Shown here one piece after another: positions 11,211 through 47,282 of a DNA stretch of 64,000 bases; position 1 is the first letter of the stretch, and every line of letters begins with the position of its first letter. Position numbers and translations under genes: made by a program. The notes below the pieces were generated by a model. That model did not search any database and was not told where the DNA came from. It saw only the letters and a list, made by a program, of their open reading frames with translations. The stretch comes from Pectobacterium brasiliense (GTDB taxonomy: Bacteria > Pseudomonadota > Gammaproteobacteria > Enterobacterales > Enterobacteriaceae). Location of the stretch: positions 124,001 to 188,000 of the forward strand of contig NZ_JACGFN010000003.1 of NCBI RefSeq assembly GCF_016950255.1. Reading direction: 5' to 3'.

Positions 11211-11332
11211 CTAAAAGAAATACATTAGCTGAACTTTTACATGGTTAATATTTACCTTTGCCTTTTCTATGATACGTGACGAATTCAAACGTTGTTTTCT
11301 CTCATGTTGTTATTAAGGTAAGGGTTATTACT

Positions 11333-12844
11333 GTGAGCAATAGTTTTTGCGTTGTTTATAAAGGTTCTGATACCGATATAAATAATATCCAACGCGACTT
11401 CGACGGAAAGGGTGAAGCATTATCTAATGGCTATCTTTTTATCGAACAGAATGGCCATTATCAGAAGTGTCAGATGGAAAGAGGATCGGCCTACCTAATA
11501 GGCTCGCTGTACAATCGGACGTTTCTGATCGGATTGGCCGGCGTGTGGGAAGGCGAAGCTTATCTGGCAAATGATGCCGAGCTGTTAGCGTTGCTGTTCA
11601 CGCGTCTGGGAGCGAATGCACTGGCGCTGGCTGAAGGTGACTTCTGCTTTTTCATTGATGAACCAAACGGCGAATTAACGGTAATTACCGAGTCGCGTGG
11701 TTTCTCGCCGGTTCATGTCGTACAGGGCAAAAAAACCTGGATGACCAATAGCCTTAAACTGGTTACTGCGGCAGAAGGTGAAGACGCGCTGTGGTTTGAA
11801 GAAGAGGCGTTGGTGTGCCAGTCACTGATGCGGGCGGATACCTATACGCCGGTGAAAAATGCGCAGCGTCTTAAGCCGGGAGCGGTGCATGTCCTTACGC
11901 ACGATAGCGAAGGTTATTCTTTCGTTGAAAGCCGCACGCTGACCACACCAGCCAGCAACCAATTGTTAGCGCTTCCGCGTGAACCGCTGCTGGCATTGAT
12001 TGATCGCTACCTTAATGCGCCGCTTGAGGATTTAGCGCCGCGCTTTGATACCGTAGGGATTCCCTTGTCAGGCGGTCTGGATTCCAGCCTGGTAACGGCG
12101 CTCGCCAGTCGTCATTTCAAACAATTGAATACGTATTCGATTGGGACGGAACTCAGCAATGAGTTTGAGTTTTCTCAACAGGTTGCTGATGCACTCGGTA
12201 CACATCATCAGGTGAAAATTCTGTCCGAAACTGAAGTGATCAACGGCATCATCGAATCCATCTATTACAACGAAATATTTGACGGCTTATCCGCTGAAAT
12301 CCAATCTGGGTTGTTCAATGTCTATCGCCAGGCGCAGGGGCAGGTGTCCTGCATGCTCACCGGATATGGTTCCGACCTGCTCTTTGGCGGCATACTGAAG
12401 CCGGGAGCGCAGTATGACAATCCGAATCAGCTGCTTGCCGAGCAAGTGTACCGGACGCGTTGGACAGGGGAGTTTGCTACCCACGGCGCTTCCCGTTACG
12501 GCATTGATATTCGTCACCCCTTCTGGAGCCACTCCCTAATCTCTCTGTGTCATGCGCTACATCCTGATTACAAAATTTTCGACAACGAAGTCAAAAATAT
12601 CCTGCGTGAATACGCCGATTCGCTGCAATTGCTGCCGAAAGACATTGTCTGGCGCAAGAAAATCGGCATTCACGAAGGTTCCTCCGTCAATCAGGCCTTT
12701 GCGAATGTTCTCGGGTCAACGGTTGATAACTACCAGACCAAAAGTCGCTTTACCTACCGTGTTTATCAAGCCTTCCTTCGTGGCCGTCTCTCCATTACAG
12801 ATGTGACGCCCTCTCAGCTTAAAGATCTGATTAAAAAGGATTAA
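11333..12844 (+). CDS. carA: Carbapenam synthetase CarA
   Basis: A 503-residue beta-lactam synthetase homologue that uses ATP to close the beta-lactam ring of carboxymethylproline, giving carbapenam-3-carboxylate. The N-terminal half is an Ntn-like domain related to asparagine synthetase B but lacking the glutaminase Cys2; the C-terminal half has the PP-loop SGGLDSS (246-252). Starting from the GTG at 11333, the published catalytic residues fall at their known numbers: Y345, E380 and K443. This fixes the start; an in-frame GTG at 11276 would add 19 residues not found in CarA. carB follows after 2 bp. Confidence 0.95.
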
Positions 12845-12846
12845 CT

Positions 12847-14435
<1,589 letters not shown>

Positions 14436-25126: not shown

Positions 25127-26413
25127 ATGACAGTCAGAACGTCCACGTTGACGGCAGAAGGGCAAGCGGATATCACGTTGAACATGCGTTCCGGCGTGCT
25201 GGGGAAAACGGCGGTGGATATTCGCCCACTCGGTGAACACGGGCTGTGCAGCTATGACCCCGGTTTTGCCAATACGGCAGGGTGCGAGTCGGCGATTACC
25301 TATATAGATGCGGTGAATAGCGTGCTGCTGCATCGGGGCTTCCCTGTCGAACAGCTCGCTGAGCAGTGTGACTTTACTGAAGTCTGTTACATCCTGCTGC
25401 ATGGTGAAGCGCCTTCGGCGGAAGCGTATGCGAAATTTGCTGACAACATCACCCGCCATACGCTGGTTCATGAGCAAATTACCCGGATGTTCAGCGGCTT
25501 TCGTCGCGATTCCCACCCGATGGCGCTGATGTGCGCGGTGGTGGGCGCGCTGGCCGCGTTCTATCACGATGTATTGGATATCCATAACGCGGAGCATCGC
25601 GAGCTGGCGGCAGTGCGGCTGCTGTCGAAAATGCCGACGTTAGCGGCAATGTGCTACAAATATTCCATCGAACAGCCATCCGTGTATCCCCGCAATTCGC
25701 TCTCCTATACCGGCAACTTTCTGCATATGTTGTTTTCGATTCCGGCGGAGAAATATGAAGTGAATCCGGTGCTGGAACGAGCGATGAACCGCATCCTGAT
25801 TCTGCATGCCGATCATGGTCAGTGCCCGTCTACGATGGCGGTCAGAGCGTCAGGTTCTTCTGGCGCTAACCCGTTTGCCTGCATTGCTGCCGGGCTGGCA
25901 TCGATGTGGGGGCCGCTGCACGGCGGGGCGAACGAAGCCTGTATGCGCATGCTGGAAGAGATTAAAACGGTCGATCGCGTCCCTGAATTTGTACGACGCG
26001 CGAAAGACCGCTGCGATTCATTCCGGCTGATGGGATTCGGTAACTCGGTCTACCAGCATTTCGACCCACGCGCGGCGATTCTGCGTAAAACCTGTTATGA
26101 AGTGCTCAATGAACTCGGCACGGAAGACAGCCTGTTGCAGGTGGCGATGGAGCTGGAACATATCGCCATGACCGACGCCTATTTTCTGGAGAATAAACTC
26201 TACCCGAGCGTCGATTTCTATACCTCAGTCATTCTCAAAGCGATGGGGCTGCCGCCATCAATGTTTACGGTGATTTCCACCGTCGGCAGAACGATCGGCT
26301 GGATTGCACATTGGGATGAGATGCATAAGCAGGATGAAATCAGCATCTACCGTCCGCGCCAGATTTATACCGGACAGCCGCGTCGGGACTATGTTTCCGC
26401 GCTGAAAGACTGA
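25127..26413 (+). CDS. Divergent citrate synthase paralogue
   Basis: A 428-residue type II citrate synthase-like protein. The folded core and several active-site positions are kept: H230 (LHADHGQ), catalytic H265 (GPLHGGANE), R315 (HFDPRA) and D363 (YPSVDFYTS). However, the motif that reads GFGHRVYKNYDPR in E. coli GltA reads [13 protein letters not shown] here, so the oxaloacetate-binding His305 equivalent is N306 and the following Arg is S307. The N-terminal beta domain is also altered. It may accept a different 2-oxo acid or be weakly active. It stands alone, with the palindrome upstream and a hairpin downstream. A siderophore island using citrate lies 6 kb away, but no link is shown. Not likely to be the housekeeping GltA, which normally sits beside sdh. 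Confidence 0.75.
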
Positions 26414-28140: not shown

Positions 28141-30307
<2,167 letters not shown>

Positions 30308-30480: not shown

Positions 30481-30960
30481 TTGAAAACCAACCTGATTAC
30501 CCGCGAGGGGTATGACAAACTGCGGGCAGAGCATGACCATCTCTGGAATGTAAAGCGCCCGGAAATTACGAAAATTGTCTCCTGGGCAGCGAGCCTTGGG
30601 GATCGCTCAGAAAATGCGGACTACACCTATAACAAGCGTTTATTGCGCCAGATCGACAGGCGTGTGCGCTACCTGAGAAAATGCCTGACGGAATTGAAAA
30701 TCGTTGATTATTCGCCGCAGCAGGATGGCAGCGTATTCTTTGGTGCTTGGGTCGAGATCGAAAATGAACAAGGTGAGGTGAAGCGCTTGCGGATTGTCGG
30801 CCCCGATGAGATCTACGGCGATAATAAAGACTATATTTCAATCGATTCCCCGATGGCGCGCGCCATGCTGAAAAAAGCGGTTGATGAGGAGTTCACCGTG
30901 AATACGCCAGACGGTCCGCGTGAGTGGTTCGTCAATTCGATTGATTACGTTAAGTCATAA
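30481..30960 (+). CDS. greB: Transcript cleavage factor GreB
   Basis: A 159-residue factor that enters the RNA polymerase secondary channel and stimulates cleavage of backtracked RNA. The N-terminal coiled coil carries the acidic tip in AASLGDRSENADYTYNK, and the C-terminal FKBP-like domain ends SIDYVKS. The start is TTG at 30481 (MKTNLITREGYDKL), as the alignment with E. coli GreB (MKTPLVTREGYEKL) requires. It belongs to the conserved tex-greB-ompR backbone; the next 12 kb are inserted between greB and ompR. Confidence 0.95.
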   Translation: MKTNLITREGYDKLRAEHDHLWNVKRPEITKIVSWAASLGDRSENADYTYNKRLLRQIDRRVRYLRKCLTELKIVDYSPQQDGSVFFGAWVEIENEQGEVKRLRIVGPDEIYGDNKDYISIDSPMARAMLKKAVDEEFTVNTPDGPREWFVNSIDYVKS

Positions 30961-31045: not shown

Positions 31046-31927
31046 TTAGTTATCTACATTTTGCGCCCGTAATAGCTGCCTGGCCTGCTCAATGACGGGT
31101 AAATCCACCATCTCCCCGTTTATCTGGAAAGCGTAGCTGTGTTCGGCGGCTTTCAGAACCTGCTTTGCCCAGTCTATTTTGCTGCGATCCGTCGCGAATG
31201 CCCGCTGAACGGCATCGATCTGCGAGGGATGAATACAGAGTTTGGCTGAGAAGCCGAGCGAGCGCGCATGTAATGCGTCAGCTAACACCCGGTCGTGATG
31301 CGTGAAGTCAGGATTGACGCAATCTATCGGTGGCGGCAAGTCGGCCAGTCTGGAGGCTAATACAATGCGGCTTCTGGCATACAGCAAGGCATACAAGGAT
31401 TGATCGCAATGAATATCGAGTGAGAAATCCAATGAGCCAAATGCGACTCTTTCTACCCCTGCTGCACAAATCTCTTCTGCATGATGCAACCCCTGTGCGG
31501 TTTCAATTATCGCAATAATATTAACCGTTTCCGATCTATTACGATTTATCATTTCTCGCGCGTCATGCAGCATTTTTGCGGATTCTATTTTAGGTAAAAC
31601 AATTTCCCATTTGTCTTTTTTATGTTTGGATGGAGCGTTATTTCTTAATTTTTCTTTATTATTAAGTTTATTCAGAAACTCGATGTCTTCACTGAATTCC
31701 ACTGAACCAAATTTGTTTAAACGTATATATTTTTTGCAATTTATTTCAGAGACGGGCGTATCGTTTTTATCCCATTGGATAATATTTTCTCTAGCCTGAT
31801 TTTTTTCATCAGGATGAACAGCATCTTCTAAATCAAATATCACGGCATCGGCACCGCAGCAGACGGCTTGTTGAAAGCGGTGGGGCGCATTACCAGGCAC
31901 AAAGAGATAGGTTTTAGCGTGTTCCAT
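31046..31927 (-). CDS. CitE/HpcH-HpaI-family lyase divergent from the siderophore operon
   Basis: A 293-residue TIM-barrel protein with the CitE-like pattern: TYLFVPGNAP at the N-terminus, VIFDLEDAVHPDEK, metal ligands E in AIIETAQGL and D in FGSLDFSLD, and KLCIHPSQI. CitE-like enzymes cleave or form C-C bonds of 3-hydroxy acyl (often CoA) compounds. HpcH/HpaI relatives occur in NIS siderophore clusters (SbnG makes citrate; AcsB in achromobactin), so a role in precursor supply is plausible. The ATG follows AAGGAGAG. Residues of about 70-115 are lysine- and asparagine-rich, and the 5' half is very AT-rich. It shares a promoter region with the NIS synthetase gene. Confidence 0.75.
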   Translation of the reverse strand: MEHAKTYLFVPGNAPHRFQQAVCCGADAVIFDLEDAVHPDEKNQARENIIQWDKNDTPVSEINCKKYIRLNKFGSVEFSEDIEFLNKLNNKEKLRNNAPSKHKKDKWEIVLPKIESAKMLHDAREMINRNRSETVNIIAIIETAQGLHHAEEICAAGVERVAFGSLDFSLDIHCDQSLYALLYARSRIVLASRLADLPPPIDCVNPDFTHHDRVLADALHARSLGFSAKLCIHPSQIDAVQRAFATDRSKIDWAKQVLKAAEHSYAFQINGEMVDLPVIEQARQLLRAQNVDN

Positions 31928-31996
31928 GCTGCTCTCCTTCTGTTAGTTCATTGATTAAATGCGGTTTTATTAAAATGTAACGCATTAATTGCGAAT

Positions 31997-32015
31997 AAGA
32001 ATGATACCTATTTAC
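31997..32015. promoter_or_regulatory. Candidate Fur box in the divergent siderophore promoter region
   Basis: The 19-mer around AATGATAcctATT matches 12 of 19 positions of the Fur consensus GATAATGATAATCATTATC, counted by eye, with the AATGATA core intact. It lies about midway between the CitE-like and NIS synthetase genes, so one site could govern both. Confidence 0.45.
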
Positions 32016-32177
32016 ATCGTCGTGGTTAATATGCTAGCTTTCCGTTCATTATTTTTCAATCCATCTATTACGACATTTTTATTAAATTTCGGGACGTGTT
32101 AACCCGAGATTTAACGACATCCTTTTATACGTTACTGCAATCGGTTTTTACTTGTTTTATCGGTATGAGGAGTGGTT

Positions 32178-34079
32178 ATGAATATCAAGGTTGACGAAAT
32201 TAAACACAGGGATATACATCAGGATGTAGATGATTTTCTCTCTGATTACTCAAATAAAAACGCGTTAAGGCGATTGATTCGCTGCTTTTTCGCAGAAGGA
32301 ATTTTGAATAAAAATGACCTGAGGTTTATTGAGGGTAATTCCAGGGAAGCAACGCTGACTTTGCAGGGTGGCAAAGGTATATTGAAATTTGAAGATATTT
32401 CGTCATCACCGGCAAACACCTATATTAATAATGGAAATATTTATCTCATTCATTCAGATGGGACGTCTTTTCCCGTTACCAGCCACGAGCGATTGATTGA
32501 TTTACTTCGCGACAGTTTCGATTTTCATCCTGACGAGAGCGGTATCAGTGGCCTGAAAAAAGACGTCGGTAACAGTATTCGTAATGATACCAACGCCCGG
32601 CGCTATCGTTGCCAATGGCGTGCTGAGGTGGCCGATGCCATGCAGCAGGACGGGCAGAACGCTTTCACGCCGTGGCTGCGTTGGCAGCTCAGCATTCGCG
32701 ATGCCGCCATGTTTCTCGATCAGTGGGGATCGCTGGAAGGCCACCCTTACTACCCGACCTGGAAATCCCGCCCCGGACTGAGTGACGAAGACGTCCAGCG
32801 GCTGTCACCCGAATTTAACGCCCGCGTGCCGCTGCGTATTACCGCGCTGCGCCGCGATATGGCGTATGTCGAATCCATGCCGCACGTCGATGATTTTCAT
32901 TCGTGGTTTGCTCATGCATTCCCCGCGCTCTGGCAGGACTGGAAGCAGCGCCTGAATCAACAGGGGCTGGATGAGACGCAGTGGCTCCCGCTGCCTATCC
33001 ACAGCTGGCATCTGGAAAACTGGGTGAAATCCCACTATGAGGATGAAATTGCCGAAGGGATTCTGCTTACCGACGGCCCCGATCTCATCACGCTACCGGG
33101 TATGTCGTTCCGTACCGTTTTGCCCGTTGAACCTCCTTCTTCTCCTTTCATCAAACTCCCCGTCGCCATCTGGATGACTAGCGAAATGCGCAGCCTACAG
33201 GCGAAATCCATCCAAATGGGGCCACGTATCAGCACCATTATCGAAGCGATTCTGGCGCAGGAAGGCGGATTTGAGCAGCGGCTGGCGTTTTTCCGCGAAG
33301 AGACGGCGTTCCACTACAAGCACGCGGTGCATCAGGATGACGCACCGGGCAAACATCTCTCCGTCGTTTTCCGCGATGCTCGAATTTATGAACGCACCGA
33401 CGGCGCCCTGCCCGTGACCGTCGCCACGCTGTTTACGGCGCTGCCTCATCGCGACCAGCCGCTGTTCACCGAGCTGGTGACGCTGTCCGGGCTTGGCCCC
33501 GAAGCGTGGTTCCGCCAATACGTCCGCGCCGTAACCCGGCCTGTTATCGCTATCTATCTGCTGTACGGCATCGGGCTGGAAGCGCATCAGCAGAACAGCC
33601 AGATCCTCTTTTCACCGGAAGGTGTCGCGCAGGGATTATTAATCCGTGATTTCGGCGACGGGCGTACCTATGCGCCGCTGCTGCGTCAGCGCGGTCACCA
33701 TCTGCAACCCTACGTCTGGCCCGGCATTCTGCCCACGGTATTTGAAGACGACATCGAACCCGTGCGGATGTTTGTCGTCGACGCCTGCTTTGTCAGCCAC
33801 CTGCACGAACTGGCGCTGGCGCTCAGCGCGGAATACGGCTTTGCCGATGCCCGGCTGTGGCAGGTGATGAAAGAAGAAACCGCCGCGGCGTTTGACGCAG
33901 TGAAGTCGCGCGTTGATGGCGAGCTGTGGCAGACCGAACGCGACATGTTTATGACCCAGCCCTGGTATACGCGTTCGCTGCTGCGCATGCATATCCAGGA
34001 ATATCGCGACTATCGGATTCAGCACGGTCTGAGCAATCCCTTCCTCATTGAAGAGGAAGAAACCCGCATCGGATCGTGA
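32178..34079 (+). CDS. IucA/IucC-family NIS siderophore synthetase
   Basis: A 633-residue NRPS-independent siderophore synthetase that adenylates a carboxylate (citrate in most type A enzymes) and condenses it with an amine or alcohol. The family motif GHPYYPTWKSRPGLS (near 190) and the C-terminal FhuF-like region with EAHQQNSQILF and LIRDFGDG are clear. The ATG at 32178 lies six bases after GAGGAG; a GTG at 32172 overlaps that site. The first 110 residues or so are encoded by much AT-richer DNA than the rest. It is the only NIS synthetase in the island, whereas staphyloferrin B, achromobactin and aerobactin systems use two or three. It opens the rightward operon. Confidence 0.9.
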   Translation: MNIKVDEIKHRDIHQDVDDFLSDYSNKNALRRLIRCFFAEGILNKNDLRFIEGNSREATLTLQGGKGILKFEDISSSPANTYINNGNIYLIHSDGTSFPVTSHERLIDLLRDSFDFHPDESGISGLKKDVGNSIRNDTNARRYRCQWRAEVADAMQQDGQNAFTPWLRWQLSIRDAAMFLDQWGSLEGHPYYPTWKSRPGLSDEDVQRLSPEFNARVPLRITALRRDMAYVESMPHVDDFHSWFAHAFPALWQDWKQRLNQQGLDETQWLPLPIHSWHLENWVKSHYEDEIAEGILLTDGPDLITLPGMSFRTVLPVEPPSSPFIKLPVAIWMTSEMRSLQAKSIQMGPRISTIIEAILAQEGGFEQRLAFFREETAFHYKHAVHQDDAPGKHLSVVFRDARIYERTDGALPVTVATLFTALPHRDQPLFTELVTLSGLGPEAWFRQYVRAVTRPVIAIYLLYGIGLEAHQQNSQILFSPEGVAQGLLIRDFGDGRTYAPLLRQRGHHLQPYVWPGILPTVFEDDIEPVRMFVVDACFVSHLHELALALSAEYGFADARLWQVMKEETAAAFDAVKSRVDGELWQTERDMFMTQPWYTRSLLRMHIQEYRDYRIQHGLSNPFLIEEEETRIGS

Positions 34080-34160
34080 TGTATGGCGATGCTCCCGCCT
34101 CACAGGCTGAAAACGGGAGCATCTTTTTCACTCCTCATTTTGAGATGGATAACTTTGTTG

Positions 34161-36374
34161 ATGAACGCCAGGAAGAACTTCACTCCACCTACCGGGAAGA
34201 CTCGTTTTCCTATTCCCTCCGCGTTGGCCATCGCCGTAACGGCTGTGCTAAGCGGCATCGCGATACCCGCGCAGTCTGCAACGGGTGAGCGCGATGATTC
34301 CACTATCGTGGTGGAAGCTAAAGACGCGAATGCCGTGCAGGGGCTGGTCGCGGGTGGCATGTCGGCGCGGTCGTCCAGCACCGGGCTGCTGGGCAAAAAG
34401 GACGTGATGGATACGCCGTTTAACGTCAGCAACATGACCTCATCGTTTATTGAAAATAAACAGGCACAGACGCTGGGGCAGGTGGTCGCGCATGACGCAT
34501 CGGTGCGGGTGAGCAGTTCTCAGGGCGGTCTGCTGGATTCCTACTACATTCGCGGTTTTCCACTCAATGAAGGAAACCTGAGCGACATCGCCATGAACGG
34601 CGTCTACGGTGTTGCGCCCAACTATCAGCTGATGACTGACTACATCGAGCGGGTGGAAGTGCTGAAAGGGCCGTCGGCGCTGCTGTATGGGCTGTCGCCT
34701 AACAGCAGCGTGGGCGGCGTGATTAACGCCGTCACCAAACGCCCGACCACCGTCGGAAATCTGACCCGCCTCACGACCAGCTGGCAGTCTGATTCCCAAC
34801 TCACACAGCATGCGGATATTTCCCGCGTCTATGCGCTGGACAATAACAATCTGCTCGGCGTGCGTTTTAACGGGAATTACGGCTACGGCGACACGGTGTG
34901 GGATGGCAGCGACAAGCGTACACAGGTCGGCTCGCTTGGGCTGGATTTTTCGTCAGAACGCTTCCGCGCCACGTTGGATCTCATCACTCAGCATCTGAAA
35001 ACCCGTGCGCCGTCTCGCCCTTATTCGTTCGCGCAGGGTGTGACCGTGCCCGATGCACCGGATGGCAACACTAATATTTCCCAGCCGTGGGGGTTCTGGC
35101 ACTCCAAAGATCAGTCGGTGTTGCTGCATACCGAATACGATCTGGCGGATAACGTCACCTGGTTTACCGATTTAGGCGGTTCCAGCGCACACGTGAGCCG
35201 ACTGTCGGAGCAGGTGCCGCAGGTCACGAATAATAATGGTGATGTGAGCAGAACGAGTAGTAATGCTTCCTATCTTGTGAATTATCGCGCCGCCGTTAGT
35301 CGTTATAATTTAGCTACGGGTATTAGAGCTGACGTGGAAACGGGCTCGGTGACACACAAACTATCAGCCCAAACCAGTTATTACCGGGATCGCCATGCAA
35401 CAACAAGTGTAATTGGTCCAGACCTCAATACTAATATCTATAACCCCGTATATATGTCTCCCGTTGACATTCCCGCACCTGCAACGATAAGCAAACGTTC
35501 TTCCACTGCGCTGTCAGGTATCGCATTGGCGGATACGCTCGGCTTCTGGAACGATGCGCTGCAAGTCACGGGTGGGCTGCGCTATCAGCAGATCAAGTCG
35601 GATAACTTTGTTCCTGGTAATAGCGCGCCATCATCGTCCTACGACAAAAATGCGATCACGCCGATGGTCGGTGTGGTGGTGAAACCCTGGCAGCACGTCT
35701 CGCTCTATGCCAACTACATTGAGGGGCTGAGTAAAGGAGATATTGCGCCTGCGAATGCGAGCAATCCGGGTCAGGTGCTTGCGCCGTATAAGAGCAAGCA
35801 GTACGAAGCCGGGGTGAAAGTGGACGCGCTGGGGACGATCTCTACGCTGAGCGTCTTCCAGATCACCAAGCCGAGCGGCGCGCTGGTTAACGGGGCGGGT
35901 AGTGAGTTCGTTACCGCTAACGAGCAGCGCAATCGGGGTATCGAGCTGGATGTCGTCGGTTCACCGCTGGAGGATCTGCGCCTGACCGGTGGTTTGATGC
36001 TGCTGGATGCCGAGCTGACCAAAAGTGTGACGCCGGGGGCGCAGGGCAAGCGCGCGCCGGGGACGTCGCGTTTTCAGGCTAACGCCGGCGTGGAATATGA
36101 CCTGCCGTTCCTGCGCGATCTGACGCTGAACGCCAACGTCACCCATAACGGGAAGCAAAACGTCAACACCATCAATACCCAGTCTATTCCTTCCTGGACC
36201 ACCGTTGATTTTGGCGCGCGTTACAAGACGCGAATCTACAACGCGCCCACCACGTTCCGAGCTGATGTCCTGAACGCCTTTGACCGCAATTACTGGTCTG
36301 GCGTGACGTCGTTCAGCACGGTATCGCAAGGAACGCCGCGGACGCTGATGCTGTCCGTCGCGGTTGATTTCTAA
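34161..36374 (+). CDS. TonB-dependent siderophore receptor
   Basis: A 737-residue outer-membrane receptor with a signal peptide (hydrophobic part ALAIAVTAVLSGIAIPAQSA), a plug domain (DTPFNVSNMTSSFIENKQAQ, SYYIRGFP, ERVEVLKGPSALLYG) and a 22-strand barrel ending in the terminal phenylalanine VAVDF. It belongs to the FhuA/FcuA-like ferric-siderophore group and should import the product of this island with TonB-ExbBD. The start is uncertain: ATG 34161 gives a normal signal peptide, and ATG 34083, 3 bp after the NIS stop, is in frame but adds 26 unlikely residues. Residues of about 355-446 are encoded by lower-GC DNA. Confidence 0.88.
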   Translation: MNARKNFTPPTGKTRFPIPSALAIAVTAVLSGIAIPAQSATGERDDSTIVVEAKDANAVQGLVAGGMSARSSSTGLLGKKDVMDTPFNVSNMTSSFIENKQAQTLGQVVAHDASVRVSSSQGGLLDSYYIRGFPLNEGNLSDIAMNGVYGVAPNYQLMTDYIERVEVLKGPSALLYGLSPNSSVGGVINAVTKRPTTVGNLTRLTTSWQSDSQLTQHADISRVYALDNNNLLGVRFNGNYGYGDTVWDGSDKRTQVGSLGLDFSSERFRATLDLITQHLKTRAPSRPYSFAQGVTVPDAPDGNTNISQPWGFWHSKDQSVLLHTEYDLADNVTWFTDLGGSSAHVSRLSEQVPQVTNNNGDVSRTSSNASYLVNYRAAVSRYNLATGIRADVETGSVTHKLSAQTSYYRDRHATTSVIGPDLNTNIYNPVYMSPVDIPAPATISKRSSTALSGIALADTLGFWNDALQVTGGLRYQQIKSDNFVPGNSAPSSSYDKNAITPMVGVVVKPWQHVSLYANYIEGLSKGDIAPANASNPGQVLAPYKSKQYEAGVKVDALGTISTLSVFQITKPSGALVNGAGSEFVTANEQRNRGIELDVVGSPLEDLRLTGGLMLLDAELTKSVTPGAQGKRAPGTSRFQANAGVEYDLPFLRDLTLNANVTHNGKQNVNTINTQSIPSWTTVDFGARYKTRIYNAPTTFRADVLNAFDRNYWSGVTSFSTVSQGTPRTLMLSVAVDF

Positions 36375-36415
36375 GGATAGGCATTTTTCAGGAACCGAAC
36401 GTTAAGGAGATAGCG

Positions 36416-37819
36416 ATGAGCAACCTGTTTAGCTTTGCCGCAGTGTCTTCCCTCCCTGTCGCGCAGGCCCACTGGCCTGAGAGACTGACGCCTTATCTGG
36501 ATAGCGAGATTGAGCAGTTTCTTTTCAACTCGCCGCAAAGGTTGTCATGGTTGGTTGAGCAGTATGGGTCGCCGCTGAATATTGTCTGGCCGCACACCGT
36601 GGCCAACAATATCGCGGCATTGCGGACGGTGTTGCAGCGTCACGACGTGGACTGCCGCCTGTACTACGGCGCAAAGGTGAATAAATCGCCGGGTCTGGTA
36701 CAGGCGGCGGTGAATGCGGGCGTCGGCGTGGATGTTTCCAGCCTACAGGAACTGAAAGATGCGCTGCGGGCAGGCGGCGACGGCGCGCGGCTGTGCGCCA
36801 CTGGCCCGGCCAAAACGCGTGAGTTCCTGACGGCGCTGGTTCATCATCGCGCTCTTATCGTGCTGGATTCACCGGAAGAATTCGACGAGGTGCTCGCGCT
36901 GGCGGATTTGTTGCGCGTGACGGATCCCGTGCGGGTTCTGCTGCGCTATCGCCCATCGTTCGCGCAGGCCAGTCGGTTTGGCATGCTGGCTGATGAGGTT
37001 GCAATCTGCCTGGAGGCGTTGAGCACCAGACAGGCTGTGCTTCATCTGGAAGGCTTCCATTTCCATCTCGGCGGCTATGAGCCCGATACCCGCGTGGCGG
37101 CATTCGCTGAGGTACTGCCATTACTGGAGCGGGCGCGGTCAAAGGGATTACAGCCCGCGATTATTGATATCGGCGGGGGATTGCCGATTCAATATCTTTC
37201 GGCTTCACGCTATCAGGATTATTTAGCGAAGCAGAATGCGGCGGATTACCGCCACGGTCAGGTGCCGACCTCGTTTTACCCGTATGGCGGTGAGCGTTCG
37301 GCTGTCGACTATCTTGAGGCATTCCTGTCCGCCTCAATCGGACAGAACCGCGTGGCGGACGTGCTCAAGCAGCACGGCCTGATTCTGGCGATTGAGCCGG
37401 GACGCAGCCTGGCTGACCAAAGTGCGATTACCGTGTTTCGCGTCACGCGCACGCGCCGCCAGCCGGATGGCAACCACGTTGTGTTTGTGGAAGGCAGCAG
37501 CTTCAGCGCGTGTGAGACCTGGTTTAACTCTGAGTTTTTGATTGATCCTCTGCATGTTTTTTCCGTCAAAAAAGACACGCCTCTGGTGCCGGGCAAAGCC
37601 TGGATCGCCGGACACAGCTGTCTGGACGACGATGTCATTACGAACCGATTGATTCATTTTCGAACCGTGCCGCAGTCAGGCGATTTACTGATTTACGCGA
37701 ATACGGCGGGATACCAGATGGACCTGCTGGAAAACGCGTTTCATCGGCATCCGCTGCCTGCGCGCCTGTGTGCGTTCAAAGGTAAGAAAGGTGAGCTGAT
37801 TTTTTCCAGTGATAACTGA
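36416..37819 (+). CDS. PLP-dependent type III decarboxylase (SbnH/PvsE-like)
   Basis: A 467-residue fold-type III enzyme related to diaminopimelate and ornithine decarboxylases. The Schiff-base lysine is K87 in YYGAKVNK; the HFHLGG block, the glycine-rich IIDIGGGLPIQY, IEPGRSL and the second active-site segment CLDDD are present. In NIS clusters such enzymes (SbnH, PvsE, AcsE, FslC) decarboxylate a diamino acid, free or already attached to citrate, to supply the diamine backbone. It begins 41 bp after the receptor gene behind AAGGAG and is followed after 13 bp by the SbnA-like gene. The exact substrate, 2,3-diaminopropionate, ornithine or a citryl conjugate, cannot be read. Confidence 0.85.
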   Translation: MSNLFSFAAVSSLPVAQAHWPERLTPYLDSEIEQFLFNSPQRLSWLVEQYGSPLNIVWPHTVANNIAALRTVLQRHDVDCRLYYGAKVNKSPGLVQAAVNAGVGVDVSSLQELKDALRAGGDGARLCATGPAKTREFLTALVHHRALIVLDSPEEFDEVLALADLLRVTDPVRVLLRYRPSFAQASRFGMLADEVAICLEALSTRQAVLHLEGFHFHLGGYEPDTRVAAFAEVLPLLERARSKGLQPAIIDIGGGLPIQYLSASRYQDYLAKQNAADYRHGQVPTSFYPYGGERSAVDYLEAFLSASIGQNRVADVLKQHGLILAIEPGRSLADQSAITVFRVTRTRRQPDGNHVVFVEGSSFSACETWFNSEFLIDPLHVFSVKKDTPLVPGKAWIAGHSCLDDDVITNRLIHFRTVPQSGDLLIYANTAGYQMDLLENAFHRHPLPARLCAFKGKKGELIFSSDN

Positions 37820-37832
37820 ATGGAGCAGAACC

Positions 37833-38849
37833 ATGATCCTGAATAAAGTAACTGATTTGATTGGTAATACGCCCGTTATACAAATTCCGGTTCCCTATGG
37901 GGATACGCGTTTGTTTTTAAAAGTGGAGAAGAACAATCCCGGCGGAAGCATGAAGGATCGCATGGCGAGAAACATGATTGTTGCCGGACTGAAGTCAGGC
38001 AAAATCCGCCCCGGTGGCACCATTGTCGAGTCGTCATCAGGGAATACCGGTATCGGGCTGGCGCTGGCGTCAATTGAATATGGCCTGCGCTTTATCGCCG
38101 TGGTCGATCATCACGCGGCACAGGACAAAATCGCCATCATGCGCGCGCTCGGCGCGGAAATTCGCTACGTCTCCGGCGACTACGGCGAAGATGAGGTGGC
38201 GGTGGTGGAACGCCAGCGCATGGCGGCACAGCTGGCGCAGGAAATACCCGGCGCGGTGTTTATGAACCAGTCGGATAACGCGGCGAATGCAGGCGGTTAT
38301 GCCGATTTTGTCCGTGAGCTGTTCAGCCAGATTGGCAAGATCGACGCATTTGTCGGCTGCGTGGGCACCGGCGGATCGATGACGGGCATTTCGCACGGCC
38401 TGAAAGTCCATAATCCAGATATCACGACCATTGCCGTTGAACCGGTGGGTTCTATCGTCTTCGGCCACCCCGGTAAGCCTTACTATCAATCCGGCACCGG
38501 TACGCCCGCGGGGGATACCGTAGGGCTGGTGTTGGATTACAGCTGCATCGACTGTGGCGAGCAGGTTTCGGATGCGCAGGCGTTTGAAACGGCACGCTAT
38601 ATCGCACGGCACTACGGTTTGCTGGTCGGCGGTTCGACGGGCGGGGTGATCTATAAAGCGCTGGAGCTGATCTATCAGGATCGCATCGGCGGCAACGTCG
38701 TGCTGGCGATTGCCGATGGCGGGGAGAAATATCTGCACACGGTGTTTAACGAAGAGTGGCTCGCGGCGCGTAACCTGATCGATAGCGGCGTGTGGCACGA
38801 TCTGGATCGCTGGCTGGGCAATGCGATTTCTCTGGAGCAGGCAAGCTAA
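37833..38849 (+). CDS. SbnA-like PLP synthase (predicted ACEGA synthase)
   Basis: A 338-residue cysteine-synthase-fold enzyme: PLP lysine K41 in NNPGGSMKDR, substrate loop SSSGNTGIG (67-75) and the phosphate-binding GTGGSMTG. Within this family it looks like SbnA, which couples O-phosphoserine with glutamate to N-(1-amino-1-carboxy-2-ethyl)-glutamate (ACEGA), the first step to 2,3-diaminopropionate. A plain cysteine synthase would be out of place in a siderophore operon. The ATG at 37833 follows GGAG; an in-frame start at 37809 overlaps the previous gene. The dehydrogenase needed to split ACEGA follows after 10 bp. Confidence 0.8.
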   Translation: MILNKVTDLIGNTPVIQIPVPYGDTRLFLKVEKNNPGGSMKDRMARNMIVAGLKSGKIRPGGTIVESSSGNTGIGLALASIEYGLRFIAVVDHHAAQDKIAIMRALGAEIRYVSGDYGEDEVAVVERQRMAAQLAQEIPGAVFMNQSDNAANAGGYADFVRELFSQIGKIDAFVGCVGTGGSMTGISHGLKVHNPDITTIAVEPVGSIVFGHPGKPYYQSGTGTPAGDTVGLVLDYSCIDCGEQVSDAQAFETARYIARHYGLLVGGSTGGVIYKALELIYQDRIGGNVVLAIADGGEKYLHTVFNEEWLAARNLIDSGVWHDLDRWLGNAISLEQAS

Positions 38850-38859
38850 GGAGTCAAGG

Positions 38860-40031
38860 ATGATCGAAACGCTAAGCGGGCAGCCGCTTAACGTGGTGAT
38901 TTGCGGGGCCGGCAAGACCGGCCATCTCGCCACGGTGCTGTTTAAACAACTGCCAGACGTCAAGGTGACGCTGCTGGGCAGCCATCCTCGTCTGCCGGAA
39001 GCCTATCAGCAGCACGGTAAACGGCTACACGCGTTGCTGCCGGATGGCGAGACGCTGACGGCCACGCCGGACTGCGTGACCTGCGACCCGGCGGAAGCCT
39101 GCCGCGATGCGGACGTCGTTATCATCACCGTTCCCGCCAACTTCCGCGCCGATCTTCTGGCGCGGATTGTTCCCCATCTTCCCCGCGATAAACCGGTTTA
39201 TGTCGGCGCAATTCCCGGTTTTTGCGGCTTTGACTGGCTGGCCGAACGTGAGCTGGCCGCGCGCGCCCAAACGCGGTGATTTGGGGCATGAAGGACGTCG
39301 CGCACATTGCGTTTGATTTGCTGCCGGGCCAGTCGATCAAAATGGGCGGCGAAAAGGCCACGCTGTATGTCGCCACGCATCGGCGCGAAACGGCTGCGAG
39401 CCAGCAGGCGCTGATGGCGCTGCTGCAACGGCTCTATTCTGCGCCGGTGGTGCTATTGCCAGATTATCTGGAGATCACGCTGACGCCGGGTAACCCGATT
39501 ATGCATAGCGCGGTGATTTACGGCCTGATCGGTCCTTACGGGCAGTGGCATGCCCGACCGCTCTCGCAGCCGCTATGCTGGTGGAATGATTGCCCGGAAC
39601 TCGGTGCCTATTATCTGGAACGCATGGACGAGGAGAACCAGCGGCTGTGTGCAGCGCTGGAGACGCGGCTTGGTGTGCGACTGGACTCGGTGCTGCCGCT
39701 CAAGCAGGAGATTATCGATGCCTATGGCGATCAGATTGCCGATGCGCACACGATGCTTTCCGTGCTGCGCACCAATCAGGCTTATCACGGCATCGGTCTG
39801 CCGCTGCGAAAACATGACGCTGGTGGGTACGTGTTTGATACTCAGCATCGGGTGTTTCAGGAGGATATTGCCTACGGCCTGAGCCTGCTGGTGACGATTG
39901 CGGAGAACCTGGCCGTTAGCGTGCCGTACATTGAGGAAGTCTACCGGTGGTGCAGTGATTACATGGGAACCTCGACGCAGGATCGTCCCGACTATTTCCC
40001 GCCGCACTGGCTGACGGATGAGATGAGTTGA
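38860..40031 (+). pseudogene. Opine-dehydrogenase-family gene with a one-base frameshift
   Basis: Two overlapping frames make one protein of about 390 residues of the NAD(P) octopine/nopaline dehydrogenase family. The first (38860-39279) has the Rossmann GAGKTGH and reads to ERELAARAQTR-stop. The second (from about 39270) continues VIWGMKDVAHIAF and holds the C-terminal opine domain (NPIMHSAVIYG, HRVFQEDIAYG). Adding one C in the run near 39264-39268 gives ...ARAPNAVIWGM, restoring the frame. In this operon it sits where SbnB (an ornithine-cyclodeaminase-family ACEGA dehydrogenase) would be, and ACEGA is itself an opine-like secondary amine. It may be a real mutation or a sequencing error. 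ATG 38860 follows AAGGAG. Confidence 0.8.
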
Positions 40032-40091
40032 CGTGATGACCGTAGCGGAAATGAGGCCGGGTGACGCCGTGAAATCAGAAGGAGCTGACGC

Positions 40092-41342
40092 ATGCGCTTG
40101 AGCGGACAGGTCGCGTTCATCATCCACTTTATGTTTGTCGTACAGCTAGTGGCGATGGGGGCGATGGAGATGAGCGGGCCGTTTTGGCCGCTGCATCTGG
40201 AAAGTATGTCATCGGGTGCGGAACTGAGTATCGCGGGGATTGCCGTGTACGTCGGGCCGATGCTGGGCATTATGCTGACCAGCGCCTTCTGGGGAAGGAT
40301 GGGCGATCGGCTGGGCAACAAAGCCATGATGATCCGCGCGTTGTTTGGGCTGGCGTTAACCCAGCTCGGGCTGGCGTGGGCAAACGACATCTGGACGATA
40401 GTCGCGCTGCGTTTTATTCAGGGAGCCTGTGCGGGCTATATTGCGCCCGCGCAGGCGTATGGCGTCGCGGTGGTCAGTCCGCTACAGCGCACGCGGCTGT
40501 TTGCCTGGCTTCAGGTCTCTACCAACGTAGGATCGCTGCTGGGAGCGATTGTCGGCGGGCTGATCCTCGATTACCTGAACTTCTTCTGGATCAACCTGAG
40601 TGCGGCGATCCTCTGCGCGCTGTGCGGCATCACCGTGGCGCTCTTCCTACCGCATGTTGCCCCCGATGTCCCTGCGGCTCCGCCTGCGGATGCGCAGGCG
40701 AAAGCCCTTCCCCGCAGGCGGCTCTGGGCGCTGTCGCCGATTCCCGGTCTGCTGCTGATTTCTGGCCTACTGCTGACCAGCCGTATGATCCCGCAAACGC
40801 CGTTTTCCCTCTATCTGGACGGCTTCTTTCAGGTGGATAAGTGGGTTATCGGGCTGTGTTATGGCTTGCAGGCGACCGGCGTGATTGTCTCTGCATCGCT
40901 GTGGGCGCGCTATTTTGAAAATCTCTCGCTGTCGCAGACGCTGAGCCGCCTGTGTGTGGTCATGCTGGCCTGCGCCATCGTGACGTTGACGGCCGCTACG
41001 ATCCTGAATATTGCGATTTTCATCCCGCTGTACTTCCTGTGGGGCGTGCTGTTGGGGGCGACGACGCCCGTGCTGATGGCGCTGATTTCCCGAGCGGCTG
41101 GGGCCGGACAGCAGGGGTACATACTCGGCGTGGCGCAAAGCGTCAGCCAGTTTGCCTCGATTCTGGGCATTTCTTTGGGCGGATTGGTTCTCTACTCCCC
41201 CGGATTACGTTCGCTGTTCTTCTGCGTTGGTGCCGCGTATCTGGTGACCTTCCTGGTCGCGCTGATGCTGCTACGACGCCTGCGGATACAGGCGGAAAAA
41301 CATGACTCTCTCTCGACGAAGGGAAATATCGAAAATGTGTAA
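40092..41342 (+). CDS. MFS exporter of the siderophore island
   Basis: A 416-residue major facilitator with about twelve hydrophobic segments, the loop motif WGRMGDRLGNKAMM after helix 2 and the domain hinge around 200-230 rich in Ala, Pro and Arg. NIS siderophore operons usually encode one such exporter (SbnD, PvsC, LbtB), so secretion of the operon product is the likely role. The ATG follows GAAGGAG. The stop overlaps the start of the binding-protein gene by 8 bp. Confidence 0.85.
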   Translation: MRLSGQVAFIIHFMFVVQLVAMGAMEMSGPFWPLHLESMSSGAELSIAGIAVYVGPMLGIMLTSAFWGRMGDRLGNKAMMIRALFGLALTQLGLAWANDIWTIVALRFIQGACAGYIAPAQAYGVAVVSPLQRTRLFAWLQVSTNVGSLLGAIVGGLILDYLNFFWINLSAAILCALCGITVALFLPHVAPDVPAAPPADAQAKALPRRRLWALSPIPGLLLISGLLLTSRMIPQTPFSLYLDGFFQVDKWVIGLCYGLQATGVIVSASLWARYFENLSLSQTLSRLCVVMLACAIVTLTAATILNIAIFIPLYFLWGVLLGATTPVLMALISRAAGAGQQGYILGVAQSVSQFASILGISLGGLVLYSPGLRSLFFCVGAAYLVTFLVALMLLRRLRIQAEKHDSLSTKGNIENV

Positions 41343-42495
41343 TCGTTGGACGCGGCAATATTGCCGTCGGTTATTGCTGAGCGCGCTGTTGATGATAGGC
41401 CTGTCGCCGCTGGCGGGGCAGGCTGAGCAAACCGCGCAAACCTCAACCATCATCAAGGACGTGTTGGGGCGCGAGGTGAGAGTCAAGACGCCGGTGCAGC
41501 GTGTCATGCTGGGGGAGGGGCGTCAGCTTTATCTGGTTGCGATGCTCGACAGGGAAGACCCGGCGAAAAGGATTGTTGCCTGGAAGCGCGATCTGATTCA
41601 GTCCGATCCGGCCACGTGGCACCAGTATCGTGACCGCTTCCCTCAACTGGCAAAAATCCCGACGTTTGACGGCACGGAAAAGGGAACGTTTGACGTGGAG
41701 CAGGCGGTGTCGCTCAAGCCGGACGTCATCATTATGAACATTGAGGCACAGCGGTCGATTGTCGATGCGGGTTATGACCGGATACTGGACAGCGTCGGCA
41801 TTCCGATTGTGTATGTCGATTTTCGCTATCACCCGCTGGAAAACACGGCGCCTACCATGCGTCTATTCGGCAAGCTGTTTAATCAGGAAGCTCGTGCCGA
41901 AGCCTTTCTCGCATTCCGTGAGGCACAGCTAAAACGCGTTTCCGATGTGCTGGCGGCTAAAAAACCGCGTTCCCCACGCGTTTTTATTGAGCGACTGGGT
42001 GGCTATACCGATGAATGTTGCCTGACGTTCGGCCCGGATAACTTCGGTAAATTCGTGCAATTGGCCGGTGGCGATAACGTTGCGGCGAAGAATGCGCCGA
42101 GCACCTTTATGCAGATGCACCCTGAACAGGTGATTGTGGAAAACCCGGAAATTGTAGTGATCACCAGCGGTAATTTTGAGGCCTTCGTGCCCGGCGGACG
42201 CTGGATTGGTCTGGGGCCGGGGCAGGATGTGACGGAAGGGCGCAAGCGGCTTGAATGGTTTTTGGGACGTCCGGCCTACACCAACAGCATCGCCAAGCAG
42301 CAGCGTGCATTTCATGCCATCTGGCATCAGTTTTACAATGGCCCGTATGACTTTATCGCCATTCAGCAACTGGCCGAGTGGTTCCACCCAGACTTATTTC
42401 GCGATCTCAACGCGGATGACACCTTCCGCCAGCTTCACCAGCAGTTCTTGCCGGTTGATTACCAGCCGGGCTATTTCGTCAGTCTTACACAGTAA
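41335..42495 (+). CDS. Periplasmic Fe-siderophore-binding protein (FecB/FepB-like)
   Basis: A 386-residue class III substrate-binding protein with a signal peptide (about 1-31, ending GQAEQ) and the TroA/FecB pattern: IKDVLGREVRVKTPVQRVML, VSLKPDVIIMN, DSVGIPIVYVDF and AGGDNVAAKNAP. It would hand the ferric siderophore to an inner-membrane ABC importer. No permease or ATPase gene is in the island, so it must share one encoded elsewhere. The ATG at 41335 overlaps the exporter stop; an earlier in-frame start at 41302 lies deep in that gene. Confidence 0.85.
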   Translation: MCNRWTRQYCRRLLLSALLMIGLSPLAGQAEQTAQTSTIIKDVLGREVRVKTPVQRVMLGEGRQLYLVAMLDREDPAKRIVAWKRDLIQSDPATWHQYRDRFPQLAKIPTFDGTEKGTFDVEQAVSLKPDVIIMNIEAQRSIVDAGYDRILDSVGIPIVYVDFRYHPLENTAPTMRLFGKLFNQEARAEAFLAFREAQLKRVSDVLAAKKPRSPRVFIERLGGYTDECCLTFGPDNFGKFVQLAGGDNVAAKNAPSTFMQMHPEQVIVENPEIVVITSGNFEAFVPGGRWIGLGPGQDVTEGRKRLEWFLGRPAYTNSIAKQQRAFHAIWHQFYNGPYDFIAIQQLAEWFHPDLFRDLNADDTFRQLHQQFLPVDYQPGYFVSLTQ

Positions 42496-42563
42496 GTCAC
42501 TCACCGTCGGCTCCGGTGCACTGGCCGGAGCTATAAGAGATTGTTTATGTCAGGAGGTTGAGC

Positions 42564-42974
42564 GTGTTTGAAAGTATGACCTACCAGATTGCTCTTACGC
42601 CCGTGCAGTTCCTGCTTCCCTCTGAAAATGTCGATATGTCGAACGTGGAATGTCTGATGGAGGATATTTGCCGCTGTGGCTGCTGGACGACACCCGTACC
42701 CATAGAGAAAGAAACCGGGATTATTATGGACGGCAATCACCGATTACGCGCGGCTAGCGAGCTGGGATTAAAGCACATCCCTTGTGCGCTGCTTGATTAT
42801 GACGATCCTCGTGTGTCCGTTTACCATTGGAAGACCGGGAAGCCTTTTTGCAAGAATCTGATTATGCAGACGATTGTGGCGGAAAAGAGTCTATTTCCCT
42901 ATAAGACGACGCGTCATTTTTTCCAGCCTGCGCTGCCGTCGGTGCGTGTTGTGCTGGATGAACTTATGCGCTAA
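42564..42974 (+). CDS. Small ParB/Srx-like protein (resembles the SbnI N-terminal domain)
   Basis: A 136-residue protein with a ParB/sulfiredoxin-like core: PVQFLLPSENVDMSNVECLMEDI followed by TTPVPIEKETGIIMDGNHRLRAASELGLKHIPC. SbnI of the staphyloferrin B cluster has this domain and is a serine kinase supplying O-phosphoserine to SbnA, but it is about 250 residues long; here only the ParB-like part exists. A precursor kinase or a regulator are both possible. The GTG at 42564 is chosen because AGGAGG ends six bases before it. It is the last gene of the operon, 68 bp after the binding-protein gene. Confidence 0.7.
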   Translation: MFESMTYQIALTPVQFLLPSENVDMSNVECLMEDICRCGCWTTPVPIEKETGIIMDGNHRLRAASELGLKHIPCALLDYDDPRVSVYHWKTGKPFCKNLIMQTIVAEKSLFPYKTTRHFFQPALPSVRVVLDELMR

Positions 42975-43337
42975 TCATCGCGATGCGTCAACCGCTTCAC
43001 GTTGTCGTTCTGAATTCAGTCGGCAACGTCCTTTCTCTTCGCTTTTCTCCTGCTTTTGCCGCTACCGTGCCTTTTTATTGGTAGCGGCGTTACTATAATC
43101 ATCGTGAGCGATAATCTTCCTTAATCAGGATTGTCATAAACGACACGCTTTGCTAGCTGTAACCTGCGTAAACGCCGATTATTTTATGACTGACAGCACA
43201 GGAAATGATTGATTACACGAATTTTAATATGCTTTGTAACAATTTTGCCTAGAATGTATACCAGAAACGACTGTCAGTAATTCGTGTGTTTCTGAACAAT
43301 AGCAGTGTCGGCGCTATTACGCCTTTGGAGAAAGAGA
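42975..43337. other. Region between the siderophore island and ompR
   Basis: 363 bp. A 9-bp stem GCCGCTACC/GGTAGCGGC (43058-43088) with a 13-nt loop may end the siderophore operon, though no U-run follows. The remainder is the AT-rich ompR leader and promoter region. No ORF is called. Confidence 0.5.
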
Positions 43338-45415
<2,078 letters not shown>

Positions 45416-45493: not shown

Positions 45494-47114
45494 TTACCGC
45501 TTCGGTCCTGCTTTCACCAGCGCTGCGCCTGCCGGTGCATCGGTGTACTTATCGAAGTTGGTGATAAAGCGCTGTGCCAAATCGTCCGCTTTTTCCTGCC
45601 ATTGTTCGACGTTGGCATAGGTATCACGTGGGTCGAGAATGTCAGGATTGACGCCGGGTAGCGAGGTCGGAATCGCCAAATCGAAGACAGGCAGCGTCTG
45701 CATTTCTGCATCATCAATACTGCCGTTCAGAATGGCGTCAATAATCCCGCGCGTATCCTTAATGGAGATACGTTTGCCGCTGCCGTTCCAGCCCGTGTTC
45801 ACCAGATAGGCCTGTGCGCCAGCCGCCTTCATGCGTTTCACCAGCACTTCAGCGTACTGCGTCGGGTGCAGCATCAGGAAGGCTGCACCGAAGCAGGCGG
45901 AGAAGGTCGGTGTCGGTTCCGTTACGCCCGCGCTCGGTTCCTGCCAGTTTGGCGGTAAAGCCGGACAGGAAGTGATACTGCGTTTGATCGGACGTCAGGC
46001 GGGAAACCGGTGGCAACACGCCGAACGCATCCGCCGTCAGGAAGATCACTTTCGTTGCATGGCCCGCTTTGGAGACCGGTTTAACGATATTCTGAATGTG
46101 GTAGATCGGATAAGAGACGCGGGTGTTCTCGGTTTTGGAGCCGTCGTTGAAGTCCACGGTGCCGTCTGCCAACACGGTGACGTTCTCCAGCAGCGCATCG
46201 CGTTTGATGGCACCGTAGATATCCGGCTCTGCTTCCTTAGACAGCTTGATGGTTTTGGCATAGCAGCCGCCTTCAAAGTTGAAGACGCCATCGTCGTCCC
46301 AGCCGTGTTCGTCATCGCCAATCAGCTGGCGTTTCGGATCGGTGGACAGCGTGGTTTTACCCGTACCGGACAGGCCAAAGAAGACCGCTACATCACCTTT
46401 TTCACCGACGTTTGCCGAACAGTGCATGGACGCGATGCCTTTCAGCGGCAGCAGGTAGTTCATGATGGAGAACATCCCTTTCTTCATTTCGCCGCCGTAC
46501 CAGGTGCCGCCAATCAGCTGGATGCGTTCTGTCAGGTTGAACGCGACAAAGTTCTCGGAGTTCAGCCCCTGTTCCTGCCAGTTTGGGTTGGTGCATTTTG
46601 CGCCGTTCATCACGATGAAGTCCGGCTCAAAGCCTTCCAGTTCTTCATCGCTCGGGCGGATAAACATGTTTTTGACGAAATGTGCCTGCCACGCTACTTC
46701 CGTGACGAAACGTACGCTGAGACGGCTGTCTGGGTTAGCACCGCAGAAGGCATCGATGATGAACAACCGTTTGCCGGACAGCTGTGTCGTGACCAGTTGC
46801 TTCAGGTGCGTCCAGGTTTCCTGGCTCAATGGGTGGTTATCGTTCTTACCTTTGCCTTGATCGGACCACCACACGGTGTCGCGGGTGATGTCATCGCGCA
46901 CGATGTATTTGTCTTTCGGGGAACGGCCGGTAAAGATGCCGGTATCGACGGCTACCGCACCCAGTTGGGTTTCGATGCCGCGTTCATAGCCTTGTAGGGT
47001 AGGGGAGCGTTCTTCTTCAAAAAGCAGTTCATAGCTGGGATTGTAGACAATATCGCGGACATCGTGGATTCCATAAGCCGTCAGGGCTTGCGGGGTAATA
47101 CCGTTGATCAGCAT
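45494..47114 (-). pseudogene. pckA: Phosphoenolpyruvate carboxykinase (ATP) gene with a one-base frameshift
   Basis: The reading frame from ATG 47114 (after GAGGAG) gives a normal PckA, with [16 protein letters not shown] (kinase-1a), [22 protein letters not shown] and the metal-binding region, up to AGTERG. It then shifts and ends at 45849. The rest ([34 protein letters not shown] to the terminal AGPKR) continues in another frame down to 45494. Removing one base from the CCC at 45927-45929 restores [18 protein letters not shown]. The corrected protein is 539 residues long, near the E. coli 540. PckA converts oxaloacetate to PEP in gluconeogenesis; loss would block growth on organic acids. 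Either a true mutation or an error in the read. Confidence 0.88.
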
Positions 47115-47282
47115 GTTGCTACTCCTCAAGTTATAGTCGTACTACTAAACATTGTAGGGAGTGAGCTTATTTTAACCGCGATAACAATCATAAAATTAAA
47201 TAAATTCATTAATAACTTTGCTTATTTAGGGTGATTGAAAAATAATCACGTCGGTTTACAGATGGGAAAATAAGCAAAATAA

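Follow-up and report, generated by a model that had tools for sequence, protein, structure and literature searches.

The proteobactin genes of Proteus mirabilis (pbtABCDEFGH and a divergent, CitE-like pbtI) are attributed to Himpsl 2010 by a 2024 review (PMC11026637), in those of its passages that we examined. The same passages describe the pbt genes as iron-repressed, record that iron chelation was lost only in a mutant without both nrp and pbt, and place PbtA, whose closest homologues (54%) are those of Pectobacterium, in the clade of Y4xN from Sinorhizobium fredii. In the examined part of PMC3973906, the role of the S. fredii y4x/y4y genes is called enigmatic. Here, we analyzed a stretch of 64,000 nucleotides from Pectobacterium brasiliense (contig NZ_JACGFN010000003.1, positions 124,001 to 188,000; the window, numbered from its first letter), which carries nine genes between greB (30481-30960) and ompR (43305-44057): one divergent CitE/RipC-like gene and, for the rest, an apparent operon. 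We have fairly good confidence that the siderophore which this operon serves to make, export, and take up is an aminopolycarboxylate of the rhizobactin type, rhizobactin B being the most likely.

Gene order in the window is identical to that of the proteobactin locus, the divergent CitE-like gene included, as was found with two P. mirabilis loci (L023 and L097; protein identity 44-81%). Judged by sequence, the window operon is the Pectobacterium version of these little-studied genes. In Proteus, an ATP-binding cassette (ABC) permease/ATPase pair (PMI0229-0230) adjoins pbtI, according to the available passages of PMC11026637, whereas the window has greB there and no permease; we regard the pair as accessory to the proteobactin locus, not defining. 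A first-pass annotation of this DNA had taken the locus for probably new. As far as the same passages go, however, the gene set was named proteobactin in 2010 and a Pectobacterium homologue was noted then. Comparison with known clusters, which that annotation had proposed, returned a described cluster with the same genes, but no structure for its product in the literature examined, the passages of PMC11026637 included.

The second described relative, y4xM-N-O-P/y4yA-B of S. fredii NGR234, shares with the window (at 37-70% identity) the ParB-like protein, the Y4yA decarboxylase, the SbnA-like enzyme, the opine dehydrogenase, the synthetase of the nonribosomal peptide synthetase-independent siderophore (NIS) type, and the major facilitator superfamily (MFS) transporter. 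Its gene order differs, however, the CitE-like gene is absent, no receptor or binding protein adjoins, and the whole lies inside a type III secretion locus. NGR234 carries two copies of the cluster, one on pNGR234a (in the type III secretion locus; L024) and one on the 2.4-Mb replicon NC_012586 (hit H40), the latter matching the genes of S. meliloti AK83 at 87.6%.

Rhizobactin production by Pseudomonas sp. FEN and a candidate pathway

Rhizobactin, known from S. meliloti DM4 and Pseudomonas sp. FEN, consists of lysine, ethylenediamine, alanine, and malate; in rhizobactin B, citramalate takes the place of malate (PMC7676072, of which we cite parts only). FEN is reported there to secrete rhizobactin together with the new and more abundant rhizobactin B, with citramalic acid replacing malic acid, and pyoverdine was undetected. 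The authors suggested that the compounds derive from homologues of rhbAB (rhizobactin 1021), leaving open how they are made. In the portions examined, another paper states, but does not detail, that P. corrugata has rhizobactin genes (PMC5679145), and the FEN genome note names no cluster (PMC7849696).

We found the whole orthologous cluster in FEN. All nine genes are present at one locus (L048), where the MFS gene is followed by sigma/FecR genes, a receptor, a binding protein, a FecCD permease, and an ATPase, and a search of the whole draft genome found a single IucA/IucC gene, the pbtA-like one. FEN is also the second-best named homologue of the window's synthetase, at 61% identity (55.7% for P. 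mirabilis; 98% for the nearest, from P. brasiliense).

From these genes we infer the substrates and the order of steps given below, and production by the window's organism itself. O-phosphoserine would be supplied by the SerK-like PbtH, or by primary metabolism, and would be joined by the SbnA-like PbtD to the alpha-nitrogen of lysine to give N2-(2-amino-2-carboxyethyl)lysine. Decarboxylation by PbtC would yield N2-(2-aminoethyl)lysine and so create the ethylenediamine bridge; in ethylenediaminedisuccinic acid (EDDS), too, ethylenediamine is reportedly built from serine. PbtE would then condense the free amine reductively with pyruvate, giving the N-(1-carboxyethyl) group that constitutes the "alanine" end, and PbtA would amidate the epsilon-amine of lysine, malate leading to rhizobactin and citramalate to rhizobactin B. 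PbtI, the CitE/RipC-like protein, may make the citramalate from acetyl-CoA and pyruvate (malate being the alternative), and transport would fall to PbtF, PbtB, and PbtG.

The mass balance of this scheme is exact. Phosphoserine plus lysine, less phosphate and CO2, plus pyruvate (reductively) and malate, less water, comes to C15H27N3O8 (computed [M+H]+ 378.1871), and with citramalate as the head group to C16H29N3O8 (392.2027); the measured masses are 378.1866 and 392.2020 (PMC7676072, in part). Each enzyme is used once and answers for a single structural unit, the formula closes, and the computed masses match those published; enzyme set and masses fit rhizobactin and rhizobactin B. Two points call for caution: a compound of ornithine and citramalate would be isobaric with rhizobactin, and the argument from a producer draws on one strain, FEN. 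We found no open-access full text naming both rhizobactin and proteobactin, nor any link between rhizobactin and an opine dehydrogenase in the open-access literature examined; subscription papers could hold either link.

The first-pass annotation had instead predicted a citryl-diaminopropionate (citryl-Dap) or citryl-ethylenediamine product. On that account, free L-Dap would be made with the opine dehydrogenase standing in for SbnB, and the synthetase and decarboxylase would, by analogy with rhizoferrin, give citryl-Dap, citryl-ethylenediamine, or bis-citryl-ethylenediamine (m/z 235.09, 279.08, or 409.11). The SbnA-like and decarboxylase genes are indeed present, FslA is the best-scoring NIS model for the synthetase, and the CitE-like gene could fill the citrate-supplying role of SbnG. 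Yet the opine dehydrogenase would have no role other than to replace SbnB, and citryl products do not fit FEN, which makes rhizobactin and rhizobactin B and whose only IucA/IucC locus found is this one. We therefore consider a citryl product improbable and the earlier prediction probably wrong; what survives of it is that the locus holds genes for a serine-derived diamine unit.

Gene content compared with other siderophore systems

Every gene named in the first-pass annotation was found at 31046-42974, with identities taken from curated models (Table 1). Gene order from greB to ompR is kept among genus relatives, which argues that the grouping is not due to chance. The annotation's view of the locus as that of a one-synthetase, carboxylate-type NIS siderophore other than staphyloferrin B, achromobactin, or rhizoferrin also held. 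Staphyloferrin B (sbnA-I) has the SbnA-like, SbnI/SerK-like, and fold-III decarboxylase functions in common with the window, but uses three NIS synthetases and an SbnG-type lyase, whereas the window has one NIS synthetase (the only PF04183 gene found in its genome), a CitE-type lyase, and an opine dehydrogenase. An SbnB-type dehydrogenase was not found above the cut-off in any of four genomes, although none of 14 controls exceeded the cut-off either; the window's genome holds one weak match to the SbnB family, on another contig. The rhizoferrin systems (FslA/FslC, FigA/FigC) likewise combine a single NIS synthetase with a decarboxylase and an FslB-like MFS transporter. The window's decarboxylase, however, is not of the FslC type (25 bits against a citrylornithine decarboxylase model with a cut-off of 500), and the opine dehydrogenase, SbnA-like, and SerK-like genes are extra.

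With the opine metallophores (staphylopine, pseudopaline, and yersinopine), the window shares the opine dehydrogenase fold and the logic of reductive condensation. PbtE has the PF02317 domain and the fold of the octopine dehydrogenase family, and a model of its FEN orthologue lies nearer, by best Z, to octopine dehydrogenase and N-(1-carboxyethyl)norvaline dehydrogenase (CENDH) than to the metallophore enzymes. No match to nicotianamine synthase was seen among the ten window proteins scanned. The "sbn" cluster of Methylobacterium aquaticum 22A was also considered; by its authors' account, in the part examined (PMC9301485), it is a two-synthetase, staphyloferrin-B-like set, and we set it aside as not belonging to the pbt family.

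The ParB/SbnI-like gene of the first-pass annotation is present, but encodes just 138 amino acids and resembles a shortened form of the free-serine kinase SerK (under the cut-off); in the alignment, its Glu23 stands opposite SerK Glu30, and the DGxHR motif is retained. The synthetase likely starts at the ATG at 32178 rather than at the GTG at 32172, as alignments to many relatives begin there, GAGGAG lies upstream, and the closest entry in the database is 633 amino acids long.

Table 1. Genes and a regulatory candidate of the greB-ompR interval (window coordinates)
Feature	Coordinates	Strand	Model matches and remarks
pbtI-like CitE/RipC-type C-C lyase (HpcH/HpaI-CitE-like)	31046..31927	-	PF03328 4e-33; top NCBIfam model RipC, 152 bits, below 375-bit cut-off; PDB acyl-CoA lyase match, 2e-38
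Weak Fur-box-like 19-mer	32000..32018	.	Within block conserved in Pectobacterium
pbtA-like single NIS synthetase	32172..34079	+	PF04183 + PF06276 (IucA/IucC + FhuF)
pbtB-like TonB-dependent siderophore receptor	34083..36374	+	TIGR01783 334 bits, above cut-off
pbtC/Y4yA-family pyridoxal phosphate (PLP) decarboxylase, fold-III (alanine-racemase fold)	36416..37819	+	
pbtD/Y4xP, SbnA/CysK-like PLP beta-replacement enzyme	37809..38849	+	TIGR03945 (SbnA 2,3-diaminopropionate enzyme) 238 bits, below 350-bit cut-off
pbtE-like opine dehydrogenase, open reading frame (ORF) 1 (nucleotide-binding part)	38821..39279	+	PF02558
pbtE-like opine dehydrogenase, ORF 2 (octopine-dehydrogenase domain)	39276..40031	+	PF02317 2e-30
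pbtF-like MFS transporter	40092..41342	+	Top NCBIfam model FslB, 181 bits, below 600-bit cut-off
pbtG-like periplasmic ferri-siderophore-binding protein	41302..42495	+	PF01497 (Peripla_BP_2); NF010649 219 bits, below 374-bit cut-off
pbtH-like compact SerK/SbnI-type protein, ParB fold	42558..42974	+	NF053625 SerK 41 bits, below 380-bit cut-off

Distribution of the cluster and of the CitE-like gene

Distribution was assessed in the best 80 of 104 loci, all of them named, some with short flanks, and the CitE-like gene was sought in them with the window's protein as a tblastn query (threshold 1e-5). The decarboxylase, SbnA-like, and opine dehydrogenase genes stand beside the synthetase in 74 of the 80, and the SerK-like gene in 68. 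Six loci lack the decarboxylase and SbnA-like genes, four of them on short contigs (L070, L112, L122, and L123) and two on longer ones (L121 and L127). The latter two are from Mesorhizobium and have a PbtA-type synthetase whose partner genes are absent from the stretch examined. At the level of the family, the synthetase occurs in 7 of 392 genomes and the opine dehydrogenase in 8, namely those 7 and one more (G734). This additional genome shows a weaker match to the opine dehydrogenase, and its SbnA-like matches, which lie on other contigs, are weak. The class-wide survey was uninformative, the opine dehydrogenase being found in 1 of 369 genomes, the window's own.

The CitE-like gene is present at 34 of the 80 loci: all 22 from Pseudomonas, 11 of 12 from Enterobacterales (the exception being Arsenophonus; the copy at L076 is truncated), and that of Bosea, which we take to be an alphaproteobacterium. 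It was not found at any of the 15 betaproteobacterial loci or at 30 of the 31 alphaproteobacterial ones. In an 88-row synthetase tree (a quick tree with long outgroup branches), the window falls with FEN in a 36-row clade (Shimodaira-Hasegawa-like approximate likelihood ratio test [SH-aLRT], 95), and 2 changes are needed to account for the CitE-like gene over 80 rows, 8 having been left out (two outgroups and six NIS-only or short-contig loci). That the gene is confined mostly to the clade of FEN fits a citramalate head group in the window's organism. In S. meliloti, 4 of the 32 plasmid records hold SbnA-like, opine dehydrogenase, and NIS genes, every match being at 99% or more, and the CitE-like gene is absent from the one cluster examined there (AK83), in line with malate-type rhizobactin from this species.

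The tree also bears on whether the scaffold logic of rhizobactin might be used in Enterobacterales with another amine (such as ornithine), keto acid (such as 2-oxoglutarate), or hydroxy acid (such as citrate), so that proteobactin would be a new analogue. The enterobacterial synthetases form a separate 14-row clade beside 22 Pseudomonas rows, and the Serratia locus has an extra gene, both of which would suit such an analogue; nevertheless, FEN has all of the core enzymes in common with them, as well as the CitE-like gene, and for the SbnA-like enzyme the identity to the copies in FEN, Proteus, and Serratia is 74-81%. We regard a new analogue as unlikely. The extra Serratia gene, a class-V aminotransferase (12787-13971), lies in a plasmid cluster of S. 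marcescens (L022) that also has IS903B inside the decarboxylase region (6094-7062).

We hold, with somewhat less assurance than for the window operon by itself, that proteobactin, the rhizobial type III y4x genes, and the Pectobacterium greB-ompR operon probably form one rhizobactin-type family. Its pathway, which we have not found described, would comprise a ligase for O-phosphoserine and lysine, a decarboxylase, an opine dehydrogenase acting on pyruvate, and a single NIS synthetase that uses malate or citramalate, with the CitE/RipC-like gene setting citramalate (rhizobactin B) against malate (rhizobactin).

Gene loss within Pectobacterium and the setting of the locus

In the window, pbtE is divided between two overlapping ORFs; in all 16 genus relatives having the gene, it is a single frame. 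The pckA (phosphoenolpyruvate carboxykinase) gene, ca. 6 kb further on, is also divided (45494-45874 and 45849-47129, minus strand), so the cause may be an assembly (indel) error or real decay; the window's strain may not make the compound, or a sequencing error may account for the pbtE break. We surveyed 25 genomes of the genus, including the window's own. The decarboxylase is present in 17; the receptor is matched at E 1e-200 or better in 19, 6 of which have an internal stop codon in it; and 5 have neither marker. In three (G001, G015, and G016; loci L129, L130, and L131), the decarboxylase, SbnA-like, and opine dehydrogenase genes and most of the synthetase are lost, leaving remnants, while the receptor, MFS, and binding protein genes are retained without stops. 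Judged by their genes, these are possible siderophore users without production, and the retention of the MFS gene hints that the transporter may serve uptake besides export.

It is conceivable, though less likely than not, that the locus is such a decaying remnant in the window's strain too, with uptake genes that work and synthesis that does not; this would be compatible with a rhizobactin-type product of the gene set and does not exclude it. The divided pbtE and the three genomes just described speak for decay, whereas the remaining ORFs are full length relative to those of relatives, and the divided pckA suggests assembly errors. Elsewhere in the genus, one genome (G021) retains the synthesis genes, but its synthetase, receptor, and SerK-like gene are broken, and three (G013, G014, and G020) have lost the SerK-like gene and have a truncated or broken CitE-like gene, with the core retained. 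Since the SerK- and CitE-like proteins are both proposed precursor suppliers, they would appear to be dispensable. In P. atrosepticum, an IucA/IucC gene under temperature regulation (CAG77013.1) was hit by a transposon, and this insertion is listed as wild type in phenotype in the examined part of PMC8125463; this gene may or may not belong to the pbt locus.

The description of the locus as an island was not borne out: the window has no tRNA gene, the GC content of the locus lies inside the window's range, and its greB-ompR position is fixed among relatives. Profile scans of ten proteins gave no match to an integrase or transposase. Elsewhere in the window, an asparagine-synthase-like gene (below its model's cut-off; 11276-12844, plus strand) adjoins a stretch of low GC content (0.417 at 10-12 kb), and the two are possibly a small horizontally acquired cluster. 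A type I citrate synthase gene lies ca. 5 kb from the siderophore locus (25127-26413, plus strand), and the bifunctional ornithine lipid synthase OlsF, above its curated cut-off, is encoded at 28604-30307 (minus strand).

As to regulation, the Fur-box-like 19-mer matches at 13 of 18 scored positions in the window and at 14 of 18 in all 16 relatives. It remains a weak match, being equalled by 300 of 3000 random sequences for the window and by 48 of 3000 for one relative. A search with the classic 19-mer Fur box gave an intergenic best of 12 of 19, equalled by 1052 of 2000 random sequences, and was rejected as not significant.

If our interpretation is correct, it would join rhizobactin, known since the 1980s with its genes unsettled, to proteobactin, for which the literature examined holds no structure, and to the enigmatic genes of rhizobial symbiosis plasmids. 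NIS siderophore chemistry would gain an opine-forming branch that uses malate or citramalate, and exact masses would be predicted for many Pseudomonas, Pectobacterium, Proteus, Burkholderiales, and rhizobia. A single gene, the CitE-like one, would then act as the switch between two products.
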